Notes under the pieces: generated by a model
Seen by the model: only the letters and a program-made list of their open reading frames with translations
Told to the model about the DNA's origin: nothing
Database searches by the model: none
Shown here: positions 6,223-14,248 of the stretch, in pieces
How the letters are laid out: every line of letters begins with the position of its first letter
How positions within the stretch are numbered: position 1 is the stretch's first letter
Virus record (IMG/VR): IMGVR_UViG_3300020410_000003
Span: 1 to 39,646 of that record
Strand: one strand, 5' to 3'
Source of the DNA: a virus
Length of the DNA: 39,646 nt
Position numbers and translations under genes: made by a program

Positions 6223-7047
6223 TTAATCAAGCTCCAAAGGGACTGCTAGGTTAGTTTTATCAAATTTTTTGTCTTTATGCCAGTGGTTAATAAAAGCCAA
6301 ATGTTCGTAAGTCTGAATTTCATCTGAAACAATAATTGAGCCTGGGAATGCTTCCCTGAAAGATTCACAAAAATCGTCGAGTGTTTTGTCATCTAATTCG
6401 TCAAGCACCGCTAAACATAATTCGCGTTCTTTTTGATTTAAAATGTCATTTGGTGCTTTGTTAGCATCAGATTTAGGCAATGAACCGGGAATCTGACCTT
6501 TTTTTACGGTAGTTTTTTTTGCTTTAGGTCCTTCAGCGTTTTCGCGGGAAGGATTTTCAATTTGTTCTTTTGCTGTTTTGGCCTCTACGGAATCGGCAAA
6601 GTCACCATCAACATCCATGTCGGCTGTAAGGCCAAGGATGGCGAGTAGGCTATAACGCCTTGAATAAGTGCAGCTTCCACCAAAGTCGTGAAGTGGATTT
6701 TTCCCCCGACCACCGACGACCATGGGCAAACGGCTGATGAGTTGACCACCGCTGACATGAAGCAACTGTGTGACAAGCACAGGGTTGTTGTCATGGGTGC
6801 TTGGCTCAAAACTCTGAGAGACAGCCAGCCCGTTTATGATTAGATGCGGGGTGACAGTTGAAAGGACAGTTTCGAGATCAGCAAAGTTTCCGTACTGTGC
6901 TTTTGCTGTTTTGTTAATTGCTGGAACGGTTTTGTGAAAGGTAATTAAAGCTTCAATTAATGGCTGTAATGGTGATGATTGCGGAGGGTTGTTCGTGTTC
7001 GGTTGCATAGCGTCGAATAGCGTTGATGCGGATAATTTGCGAGTCAT
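6223..7047 (-). CDS. erf: ERF-family single-strand annealing protein
   Basis: Residues 50-80 carry AQYGNFADLETVLSTVTPHL and GLAVSQ, and residues 123-147 carry GGSCTYSRRYSLLAILGL followed by DMDVDGD. These are the two hallmark blocks of the ERF superfamily (P22 Erf-like annealases). The C-terminal half is a Lys-rich linker and a helical tail. The enzyme anneals complementary ssDNA in phage recombination and would work with the PD-(D/E)XK nuclease and SSB of the same block. The start region overlaps the 3' end of the RusA-like gene by 95 bp (56 bp if the ATG at 7008 is used), unusually long for this phage. Confidence 0.9.
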   Translation of the reverse strand: MTRKLSASTLFDAMQPNTNNPPQSSPLQPLIEALITFHKTVPAINKTAKAQYGNFADLETVLSTVTPHLIINGLAVSQSFEPSTHDNNPVLVTQLLHVSGGQLISRLPMVVGGRGKNPLHDFGGSCTYSRRYSLLAILGLTADMDVDGDFADSVEAKTAKEQIENPSRENAEGPKAKKTTVKKGQIPGSLPKSDANKAPNDILNQKERELCLAVLDELDDKTLDDFCESFREAFPGSIIVSDEIQTYEHLAFINHWHKDKKFDKTNLAVPLELD

Positions 7048-9643: not shown

Positions 9644-10004
9644 TATAGATAAAGAAAAACGAGCATTCTCTATGCTGCTTTGGGTTCCCTATTGTCTGCC
9701 TGTAGAGTATGACGATGCTTTGGCCGCCGCTGGTGTTTACACAAAACAACAAAGGCGGCGCTCTGATGATGCGTTGCTTAAGTTCGAGCAACATAATCAA
9801 TACGAATCGAGCACAGAATTAAAAGCATTCAAATATTTAATTAAAACAGGACACTTTCCCGAATCTCAACTTTTTTCCCCTGCAAAAGCAAAGTGTGGCT
9901 ACTACTCAAAACAGCTCAAACAATCCCGACGCTCAAAACCAGATAATAAAGAATCTAGACGCGAATATAGAAGAATTAGAGCAATCAGTAAGGCAAATAT
10001 GTAA
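9636..10004 (+). CDS. hypothetical basic protein (122 aa)
   Basis: The start overlaps the upstream stop by 8 bases. The N-terminal half is mixed (FSMLLWVPYCLPVEYDDALA) and the C-terminal third is strongly basic (KQSRRSKPDNKESRREYRR), suggesting nucleic-acid contact. The last 110 bp overlap the helicase frame if that gene begins at GTG 9895. No known domain is seen; its place just before the ATPase suggests a replication accessory or loader role, an inference only. Confidence 0.6.
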   Translation: MINIDKEKRAFSMLLWVPYCLPVEYDDALAAAGVYTKQQRRRSDDALLKFEQHNQYESSTELKAFKYLIKTGHFPESQLFSPAKAKCGYYSKQLKQSRRSKPDNKESRREYRRIRAISKANM

Positions 10005-11613
10005 TCATACAAAAGATACGTTTGTACGTATGCAAATGGTTAGAGAAATTGCAATTGATATAGGGCTAACTATGTCTAGAGCTGAAATTTCTGGGATTAT
10101 TGCTAGAGCTGAGGGGCGGAATTTTATACTCCCTGATCCTAAAAAAGGTGGTGATTTTTTAAACGTTGTTCCTCAGCCTTTTTTGTGGGATGGAATCATC
10201 ATGAGCGGACGTCAAAACCTTTTAGTGGCCCCTCCAAAAGTTGGCAAAAGTGCTTTAATGGTTGCGTTGGCTGGGGCATCAATTCGTTGCCAAAAAAGTT
10301 TTTTAGGGCTTGACATAAAGCAGCACATTAATAAATTGATCATTGTTGGAACTGATCAAAACGAATCAGATTGGTGGACACTTTTAAAAAGAGAGGGTTT
10401 AGGCTCAGATTTTATTGATGAAAGTGGGTCGCTTAAACATGTTTTGCACGAAAAAGTTTTGCTTTGGAGCTTAGAGGATCGACTACAGTTGAATGATGAA
10501 GGAATTGAAGCGATATGCGGCCAAGCAATTTGCAACCCAGGATCTTTAATTTTGATTGATACATATCATGCTTGCATGGGTTTACTAGGCATTGAAGAAT
10601 CTAGCAGTGAATTTGACATACCTGCAAGACAATTGGAACAAGCTTTAGCGGGCACTAATTCAACAACTGTCTTAATTCACCATACAAATAAAAGTGTTAG
10701 CGGTGGAAACCCAATAACAGCATCAAGAGGCAACAACAGTTTGGCTGCTGCGGTTAGTTGGTCTGTGTTGCTTAACTGGTTAAACGTGCCTGCAGAAGGG
10801 CAATTACAAGTTGACCACAGAATTGCCGTAAAGCCTATGGGTCGTGGTCAAGCTCAATCGCTTGTCATTGAGCTTAATGACGCTGGTTGGGTTAGCCACG
10901 GCGCTGGTGATGCTGCATTTGCCTTAGAGGCCATAGAGAACGCTGAAGCCGACCTAACAGAGCAGCTGTCTAAGGTCTATGACTGTGCGCTTATGCGCTG
11001 GTCTAATAATTTGACGACAACGGCACCATTAATTGCAAACACTTACGAATGGTCACAGCAAAAGGCTTTACGTTCTCTGCAACAGCTTGTAAAGCGTGGC
11101 TTAATGACAAAGAAAATACAAAGTGGAGGCGCTCTTGCCAATGCCGCCAACCGTCCTGGCACTGCCGGACGACCAGCTGTCGAATTCAGACCAGTTAAAC
11201 CAAATGATTATGAGGGTACCCCCGAAAACGTGTGTTTAATGAATGAAATGACTTTAAACCCCCCTAAAACCTCTCTCGCACATAAAAAAAACCATTTAAG
11301 TCATTTTATTCATAATAAACCACCCCAGGAGGGGACCCCATTAAACCACCCCTGTGCGGGGCTTCCGGTTGAGCGTCTTATTAATGCAGGAAAACCTACT
11401 GAATGTTGGCAAAATGGTTGGATTATTGATGATGCAAGCAATTTACATGCAATTACAATTTCAAAAATTGGTCAAATACATTATAAGATAAAAAATATGC
11501 GTTGGCCGGTTGACATAAGACCGTGCGAGCGCTCACCCTTTGAATCCTCTGAAAGTCCAAATATTGAACCAACAGAGAATTCAAAACCCAACAAACGTAA
11601 ACTTCGTTTTTAA
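9895..11613 (+). CDS. RepA/DnaB-like RecA-fold replicative ATPase
   Basis: Walker A is APPKVGKS (residues 112-119 from the GTG start) and Walker B is SLILIDTY (Asp222). IHHTNK and the SRGNNSLAAAVSW stretch follow, as in the AAA_25/RepA hexameric helicase group. Residues ~350-420 look like a winged-helix region (TAPLIANTYEWSQQKALRSL). The C-terminal ~150 residues are low-complexity and proline-rich. It probably unwinds DNA or loads the replisome; no polymerase or primase is seen, so host enzymes must complete the fork. The start is uncertain: GTG 9895 overlaps the upstream gene by 110 bp, whereas ATG 10030 lies 25 bp after its stop but cuts off a helical N-terminal region. Confidence 0.82.
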   Translation: MATTQNSSNNPDAQNQIIKNLDANIEELEQSVRQICNHTKDTFVRMQMVREIAIDIGLTMSRAEISGIIARAEGRNFILPDPKKGGDFLNVVPQPFLWDGIIMSGRQNLLVAPPKVGKSALMVALAGASIRCQKSFLGLDIKQHINKLIIVGTDQNESDWWTLLKREGLGSDFIDESGSLKHVLHEKVLLWSLEDRLQLNDEGIEAICGQAICNPGSLILIDTYHACMGLLGIEESSSEFDIPARQLEQALAGTNSTTVLIHHTNKSVSGGNPITASRGNNSLAAAVSWSVLLNWLNVPAEGQLQVDHRIAVKPMGRGQAQSLVIELNDAGWVSHGAGDAAFALEAIENAEADLTEQLSKVYDCALMRWSNNLTTTAPLIANTYEWSQQKALRSLQQLVKRGLMTKKIQSGGALANAANRPGTAGRPAVEFRPVKPNDYEGTPENVCLMNEMTLNPPKTSLAHKKNHLSHFIHNKPPQEGTPLNHPCAGLPVERLINAGKPTECWQNGWIIDDASNLHAITISKIGQIHYKIKNMRWPVDIRPCERSPFESSESPNIEPTENSKPNKRKLRF

Positions 11614-13342: not shown

Positions 13343-13590
13343 TGGAAAATCATTATTACATGCTTAATCTTTTTGAACAATTTGAAAAAGCTGCAGAACA
13401 AATGCACACAAAATTTTTTGAAGCAATTAAAGAGCCGGCAACTACTTATTATATTGAGGCATTTTTTGACGGTAACCTTGAATGGACTGAATGGGCATAT
13501 GATAAGGATGAGCTTCAAAGGCTTATAAATGATGCTATTGAATCTGGCTGCACTTTTGCCGTTAAGGAGTATGGATCAGATGAAATTTAA
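13342..13590 (+). CDS. hypothetical acidic protein (82 aa)
   Basis: TAATG coupling to the upstream gene supports the start. The product is acidic and rich in Phe, Tyr and Glu: a helical N terminus (LFEQFEKAAEQMHTKFFEA) followed by an alpha/beta-like tail (YYIEAFFDGNLEWTEWAY). No known motif is seen. Small acidic phage proteins can mimic DNA or bind host enzymes, but nothing here identifies a target. Confidence 0.6.
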   Translation: MENHYYMLNLFEQFEKAAEQMHTKFFEAIKEPATTYYIEAFFDGNLEWTEWAYDKDELQRLINDAIESGCTFAVKEYGSDEI

Positions 13591-13918
13591 AAAACAAAAT
13601 TGTCTGACAATGGCAGATCTGCATTTATTCGTGCGTTCTCAATCAATTCGAGATAAACATAATTATGATCTAAATTCTTGGCAAAAAGAATCAAATCAGA
13701 TCAGAAGACAAAGATATGCTGTCTATAATTCTTTTCCGATTAGATGGCAAACTAAATCAGAACTTTTAGTTAAAGGCGTTTATGGTAACAGGCTGACAAT
13801 TGCGGAAAATGTTATTGATTTTATCCCATGCCAATATTCTGCAACTGAAATTTGGGATTATGTTTTGATCTATTTACGCCAAACAGATAATTTGATACAC
13901 TTAAATCGTTATTCTTGA
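13580..13918 (+). CDS. hypothetical protein (112 aa) with strong ribosome binding site
   Basis: An AAGGAG at 13564-13569 stands 10 bases before ATG 13580, which decides the start (MKFKKQNCLTMADLHLFV) over the upstream in-frame codons at 13529 and 13571. Clear Shine-Dalgarno sites are rare in this window. The product is basic and aromatic without a recognised domain. It overlaps the preceding gene by 11 bp and is the last gene before the structured region at 13923-14036. Confidence 0.65.
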   Translation: MKFKKQNCLTMADLHLFVRSQSIRDKHNYDLNSWQKESNQIRRQRYAVYNSFPIRWQTKSELLVKGVYGNRLTIAENVIDFIPCQYSATEIWDYVLIYLRQTDNLIHLNRYS

Positions 13919-13922
13919 ATTT

Positions 13923-14036
13923 TGTCGGGAGGCCTGATGCCTTGTGCTGATACACAAGGCTGAAAGCTATACAACACCCTTTTAGGTGTACGAGGGAAAG
14001 GCAGGGCACGTTTGAGGCGTGATCTATCTCCTGACA
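13923..14036 (+). ncRNA. candidate structured RNA (about 114 nt) between accessory and packaging genes
   Basis: A closing stem pairs TGTCGGGAG (13923-13931) with CTCCTGACA (14028-14036): nine pairs, one G-U, across about 100 bases. Inside are GCCT (13932-13935) with AGGC (13999-14002), a perfect 8-bp hairpin (13939-13946 with 13953-13960, loop CTGATA), a 5-bp hairpin (13974-13978 with 13985-13989), and a 4-bp hairpin (14007-14010 with 14018-14021). The loop CTTTT (13979-13983) can also pair with GAAAG at 13962-13966. No gene covers the stretch. It matches no RNA class I could recognise, being neither tRNA, hammerhead nor fluoride or glutamine riboswitch. It could be a 5' leader controlling 14072-14248 and terminase, a processing site, or a trans-acting RNA. 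Confidence 0.5.
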
Positions 14037-14071: not shown

Positions 14072-14248
14072 ATGGAATCAAACCTAAACCCTCCGCCAGC
14101 TCGTTTGCGCAATCTCTCGGATGGTTGTGTGCTTGTGACCGTTGGTGAATTTCGTGGCATGGTCTCATCACATCATCTCATTGAGCAAAAAATTGTTCAA
14201 CTTCGCGAACTTTGGGCAAAATTTCATGACTCTCACGAAAACTGTTAA
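14072..14248 (+). CDS. small conserved-looking protein (58 aa) upstream of terminase
   Basis: A 58-codon frame starts at ATG 14072, 35 bases after the candidate RNA. The product has a proline-rich start (NLNPPPARLRNLSDGCVLV) then TVGEFRGMVSSHHLI and a helix (EQKIVQLRELWAKFHD). Its composition is that of a real protein, and it resembles small proteins I have seen next to terminase genes in cyanophages. The ATG follows an A-run, not a Shine-Dalgarno site. The function is unknown. Confidence 0.65.
   Translation: MESNLNPPPARLRNLSDGCVLVTVGEFRGMVSSHHLIEQKIVQLRELWAKFHDSHENC

Follow-up and report, generated by a model that had tools for sequence, protein, structure and literature searches.

The window analysed here, by which we mean the whole stretch of 39,646 bases, is a virus record with PHROGs family matches for its terminase, portal, head-morphogenesis and major head proteins, and the large terminases nearest to its own are those of Synechococcus phages S-H1 and KBS-S-2A and Prochlorococcus phages MED4-117 and MED4-184. 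A first-pass annotation had singled out positions 13923-14036 as a gene-free stretch with a multi-branched fold, and the stretch does lie free of genes, between an ORF that ends at 13918 and a 58-aa ORF that starts at 14072. The element begins 5 nt past the TGA stop codon of the upstream ORF, for which no PHROGs or Pfam family was found; the window holds no detectable tRNA or tmRNA. The features, all on the plus strand, are as follows.

13529..13918, +: upstream ORF, 129 aa counted from its first start codon, stop codon TGA
13923..14036, +: whole RNA element; covariance model match 13924-14035, 90.4 bits, E 7.4e-21
13923..13931, +: closing stem P1, 5' strand, opposite 14028-14036; two of its pairs covary, U-A/C-G and A-U/G-C
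13933..13935, +: inner stem P1b, short, CCU opposite RGG at 14004-14006; nearly invariant, with one-sided changes only in phages
13939..13960, +: P2 hairpin, 8 bp (13939-13946 with 13953-13960); covariation A-U/G-C, C-G/G-C and C-G/U-A
13961..13965, +: conserved junction UGAAA, from P2 to P3a
13966..14002, +: P3a (13966-13967 with 14001-14002), internal loop and P3 (13977-13980 with 13993-13996)
14004..14006, +: P1b, 3' strand
14007..14021, +: P4 hairpin (14007-14010 with 14018-14021); covariation at all four pairs
14022..14027, +: highly conserved junction AUCNAU, from P4 to P1
14028..14036, +: P1 closing stem, 3' strand
14072..14248, +: downstream small ORF, 58 aa

Fold and covariation

The RNA of the window copy has a predicted folding energy of -42.2 kcal/mol, where dinucleotide shuffles average -31.8 (sd 3.3), which gives z = -3.15; only one of 200 shuffles was as stable, so that the fold stands in a comparison which the annotation itself had named as able to refute it. 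The structure adopted here is nevertheless a different one, worth only -29.7 kcal/mol on the window sequence, and was accepted because covariation, rather than energy, supports it. It was derived from an alignment of 34 representatives, which gave P1 (7 bp), P1b (CCU/RGG), P2, P3a (GC/GC), P3 and P4, arranged as two nested junctions in which P1 encloses P1b and P4, and P1b encloses P2 and P3a/P3. The 9-bp closing stem and the 8-bp hairpin of the original proposal are both present and conserved across the family. An inner stem also exists, but in its comparative version it is the CCU/RGG pairing of P1b and not the minimum-energy stem of 4 bp, while the suggested loop pseudoknot gained no comparative support. 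Beyond that proposal, the short GC/GC stem P3a, with C-G/U-A covariation, closes the third hairpin and with it a conserved internal loop, YAUACAA.../...AAA. The element ends are of the form GYCGGGR...YCCCGRC, and its length ranges from 77 to >190 nt, usually about 90-115 nt. P2 is very variable in length among relatives; natural variants include copies lacking P3, with P3a capped by GAAA (L372, L382), copies lacking P2 (L394, L395, L410, L429), and others with large insertions in P2 or P3.

A covariance model of 106 positions and 22 pairs (R1) was used to collect further copies. Paired cells amounted to 99.6% in 83 viral matches (12 of 22 pairs changed on both sides), 99.9% in 73 further viral matches (13 of 22) and 95.2% in 103 matches mostly from hosts (19 of 22), figures to be read with the caution that model-made alignments lean towards the model's own structure and that related sequences are not independent. 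The covariation score was reached by none of 500 shuffles, and control structures slid along the alignment collapsed; in the set of 73, one of five measures (further pair types) was no higher than in shuffles. Compensatory changes occur in P1, P3a, P3 and P4 in all four counted sets (34, 83, 103 and 73) and in P2 in every set save the 34 representatives, whereas the support for the nearly invariant P1b consists mainly of one-sided changes. At the base of host P4 stems, G-U is the most frequent pair, which points to RNA rather than DNA. An alternative pairing offered by RNAalifold (9-53/10-52) was dropped, since column 53 covaries with column 88 (C-G to U-A, in 11 host and 23 viral rows). The annotation had asked for covariation in a dozen homologues; compensatory changes were found in hundreds of copies. 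Sequence comparison thus strongly supports a conserved structured RNA, with all helices but the short P1b backed by compensatory changes.

The claim that the fold belongs to no known RNA class is strongly supported by the same covariation and by searches of Rfam 15, which gave no match in the window at the gathering threshold; at E <= 10 the best match in the stretch scored 15.7 bits where the cut-off is 62, and at E <= 2 no match overlapped four other copies examined (L140, L243, L248, L254). No earlier description was found in those parts consulted of the openly accessible literature on bacterial and metagenomic structured RNAs and on marine cyanobacterial non-coding RNAs. Judged by these comparisons, 13923-14036 is one copy of an undescribed family of structured RNAs.

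Distribution in phages and cyanobacteria

The covariance model finds the element in 46 of the 80 viral loci that have a related terminase, one of the 46 copies being truncated at a contig end. Two degenerate DNA patterns brought in further viral contigs, on which R1 gave the sets of 83 and 73 matches, some contigs recurring between scans; the covariance model total is about 150 copies in viral contigs. Cultured Prochlorococcus phages MED4-184 and MED4-117 hold one copy each. Presence is patchy among close phage relatives, and one empty site was found, with the element in one phage (L208) and absent from a related phage (L028) in which both flanks are homologous.

A scan of bacterial genomes by pattern matched 11 contigs, 10 of them titled Synechococcus. 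The element was present in 36 of 251 sampled Cyanobiaceae genomes and in 26 of 31 genomes of one Synechococcus genus, and a phylum-wide sample of 339 genomes yielded 14 positives, all already among the genomes of the family search. Positive cyanobacterial genomes hold from 1 to 20 copies each (R1), and copies inside one genome are diverse; a genome of 2,366,980 bases with three copies (G247) is one we take to be Synechococcus WH7803. A separate 15-mer scan returned mostly chance matches and contributes to no count. In one genome (G006), four equal-scoring copies lie at contig ends (L330, L331 and the ends of C9 and C18); the upstream gene ends of L330 and L331 are also nearly identical, which suggests a recent duplication of gene plus element.

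Marine Synechococcus and Prochlorococcus, together with the viruses that infect them, rank among Earth's most abundant biological entities, and to our knowledge few structured RNAs have been known from them. An RNA common to hosts and phages, apparently undescribed, numbering up to about 20 copies per host genome and obeying a clear positional rule, is therefore of some consequence: viruses and hosts appear to share a gene-end RNA device. Its occurrence in cultured material (MED4-184, MED4-117 and G247) makes it open to experiment, and it marks genes of the flexible genome, many apparently secreted, that can now be found by their ends.

Placement behind genes

For viral copies, the upstream gene was taken as the longest ORF ending within 130 nt upstream; these are plain ORF calls, and some of the resulting families are possibly spurious. 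Where such an ORF was called, 122 of 152 copies begin 4-9 nt past its stop codon. BLASTP linkage sorts these ORFs into 59 unrelated families, of which 37 show a median spacing of 4-9 nt. UGA, UAA and UAG all serve as stop codons, and the element often follows at 5 nt (44 copies), 6 nt (48 copies) or 7 nt (20 copies), which argues against a lock to one frame. A stimulator of readthrough or frameshifting was rejected on this ground, together with the wide range of element lengths.

The idea that the element serves an early/late switch ahead of the packaging genes does not hold in general. The MED4-184 copy precedes terL by about 4.3 kb; it starts at the stop codon of CPAG_00029 and extends into the end of a convergent RusA-like gene. 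In some other viruses the element sits between convergent genes or directly behind a terminator; the host copies contradict the idea as well. A terminator separates the upstream gene from the element at L135, L136, L149, L161, L179, L187, L405 and L435.

Of 73 host copies, 62 share the strand of the nearest upstream ORF, and most begin 6-17 nt past the upstream stop; of 76 nearest downstream ORFs, 49 run the same way as the element and 27 the opposite way. Many host copies, roughly 45-50 of 78 as counted by reading, are followed by an A-rich linker and an intrinsic terminator, the latter usually within about 10-24 nt of the element. The recurrent rule across copies is location directly behind a gene end. 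Host genes ahead of the element often look secreted, as judged from their sequences by eye: RTX calcium-binding repeats (PF00353) were found in 2 of 6 upstream proteins scanned with Pfam, and other products appear to be small proteins with Sec-type signal peptides or, in one case, a peptide of the double-glycine type. Two orthologue pairs, 86% and 94% identical, keep the element (2 of 2 for each gene); among the more distant paralogues listed, L356 alone has an element nearby.

Interpretation and rival readings

Position right behind the gene end is the feature that viruses and hosts have in common, and it favours a cis-acting element of the 3' UTR over the rival explanations; copies lie behind the stop codon of a gene, and the exceptions sit behind terminators. 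We tentatively prefer the reading, which may well be correct, that this structured RNA is bound by a putative factor of the picocyanobacteria, controls the fate of mRNA 3' ends, and has been borrowed by phages. While structure and location are observed, function is what we infer. The element would be co-transcribed with the upstream gene and would fold once the ribosome has terminated; a candidate factor of marine picocyanobacteria would recognise the folded form, and the 3' end of the mRNA would thereby be protected, processed or localised. Phages may have acquired the same module for accessory genes, bringing the host factor to bear on phage mRNA, and the window copy would act on RNA transcribed from the accessory gene cluster that ends at 13918. 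The compensatory changes in the fold, the G-U pairs at the base of P4, the spacing rule, the strand bias of host upstream ORFs, the closeness of host terminators and the retention in orthologues all support this reading. Its main difficulty is the terminator that precedes the element in several viruses, and the patchy presence among close phage relatives and the empty site also count against it. A broader proposal, which we consider possible although rather doubtful, is that these sequences represent a new class of stop-codon-anchored RNA that links the termination of translation to what becomes of the mRNA 3' end, employed first with cyanobacterial genes for secreted proteins and then by phages.

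Several known systems resemble the element in part. REP/BIME sequences are folded units near the stop codons of many unrelated transcripts that affect mRNA 3' stability and terminating ribosomes. Both kinds of sequence are folded and lie close behind the stop codons of unrelated genes; however, REPs are short imperfect palindromes, whereas the present element is built around two junctions, and many of its unpaired bases are invariant. The L17 downstream element (PMC2864571) is likewise structured and probably lies in the 3' UTR of bacterial genes, but is tied to genes for ribosomal protein L17, in contrast to the unrelated genes, many copies per genome and presence in both phages and hosts seen here. 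The same source, with Rfam, lists the manA, wcaG and PhotoRC-II RNAs, which like our element are structured RNAs from marine samples and cyanophages; manA RNAs are placed there in 5' UTRs, and no Rfam model matches the present element. Yfr103 (PMC5069720) is also a conserved, multi-copy structured RNA of marine Synechococcus and Prochlorococcus, of unknown function; it is a separate non-coding RNA of 290-328 nt with mapped start sites, as against about 90-115 nt behind stop codons, a distinction drawn by description only.

The likeliest of the rivals, though still an unlikely one, is a trans-acting small RNA, which would either be cut from mRNA 3' ends as a unit of about 140 nt that includes the terminator or have a transcript of its own, with the phage copy mimicking the host RNA or titrating its partner. 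The host unit has the size of a typical 3'-end-derived small RNA, with an A-rich single-stranded linker, there are many copies per genome, and the viral copies behind a terminator fit separate transcription. Against this, no promoter-like excess was detected near the window copy, GC-rich phages have no consistent -10-like sequence upstream when judged by eye, and duplexes pairing the 3' linker of a host gene with that gene's own conserved 5' leader were no better than those with shuffled partners (p = 0.38).

Less likely again is the riboswitch-like role proposed at the outset, in which a ligand-sensing RNA controls read-through downstream or the stability of the upstream mRNA. Unpaired junction bases that are nearly invariant, as in aptamers, and a host terminator that often follows directly would suit a sensor; yet the host downstream genes lie on either strand, and viral variants dispense with the whole P3 internal loop or with P2. 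Nor do the flanking gene families show an evident common pathway of the kind that riboswitches precede, the viral upstream and downstream families being unrelated.

We consider improbable a self-cleaving or RNase-processed site separating upstream from downstream RNA, for although a compact multi-junction core with invariant bases, placed between genes, would be in keeping with it, no Rfam ribozyme family matches even at relaxed thresholds, and with a host terminator close behind the element cleavage would be redundant.

Just as improbable is a mobile or cassette-type DNA element, whether comparable to an integron attC site or to a selfish insertion favouring gene ends. The short, constant spacing behind many unrelated genes, the patchy presence, the empty site and the placement also behind terminators could be so explained, but the element ends are unlike attC R boxes (the attC consensus being taken from general knowledge), copies within a genome are diverse, and both the frequency of G-U pairs and the conservation of the loops point to RNA. 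The attC variant was rejected: a full integrase (TIGR02249 over cut-off) was found only in G110, G177 and G560, all without the element. These three are among the five element-free genomes of the genus, a coincidence with a chance of about 0.002 if genomes were independent, and one that may only reflect relatedness.

The host regions offered some further observations. A T7-like single-subunit RNA polymerase (L248:1545-3977, minus strand) lies about 1.1 kb downstream of a copy in Synechococcus sp. UW140; a link to the element was rejected, related sequences occurring in 6 of 31 congeners with no tie to it. One region (L345) has two Rfam Cyano-2 RNAs (6665-6864 and 9892-10092) between two element copies. 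Finally, a conserved leader of about 90 nt, which gave no significant match in viral loci, often stands ahead of host ORFs that bear the 3' element (regions L312-L351; for example L332:10087-10172 and L334:14609-14698). Of 54 leader matches, 44 have a same-strand element downstream, a fraction biased by the choice of loci for the element. The leader reads GATGGTG... followed by GGAGGG..CCTCC, a hairpin that could mask the GGAGG resembling a ribosome-binding site.
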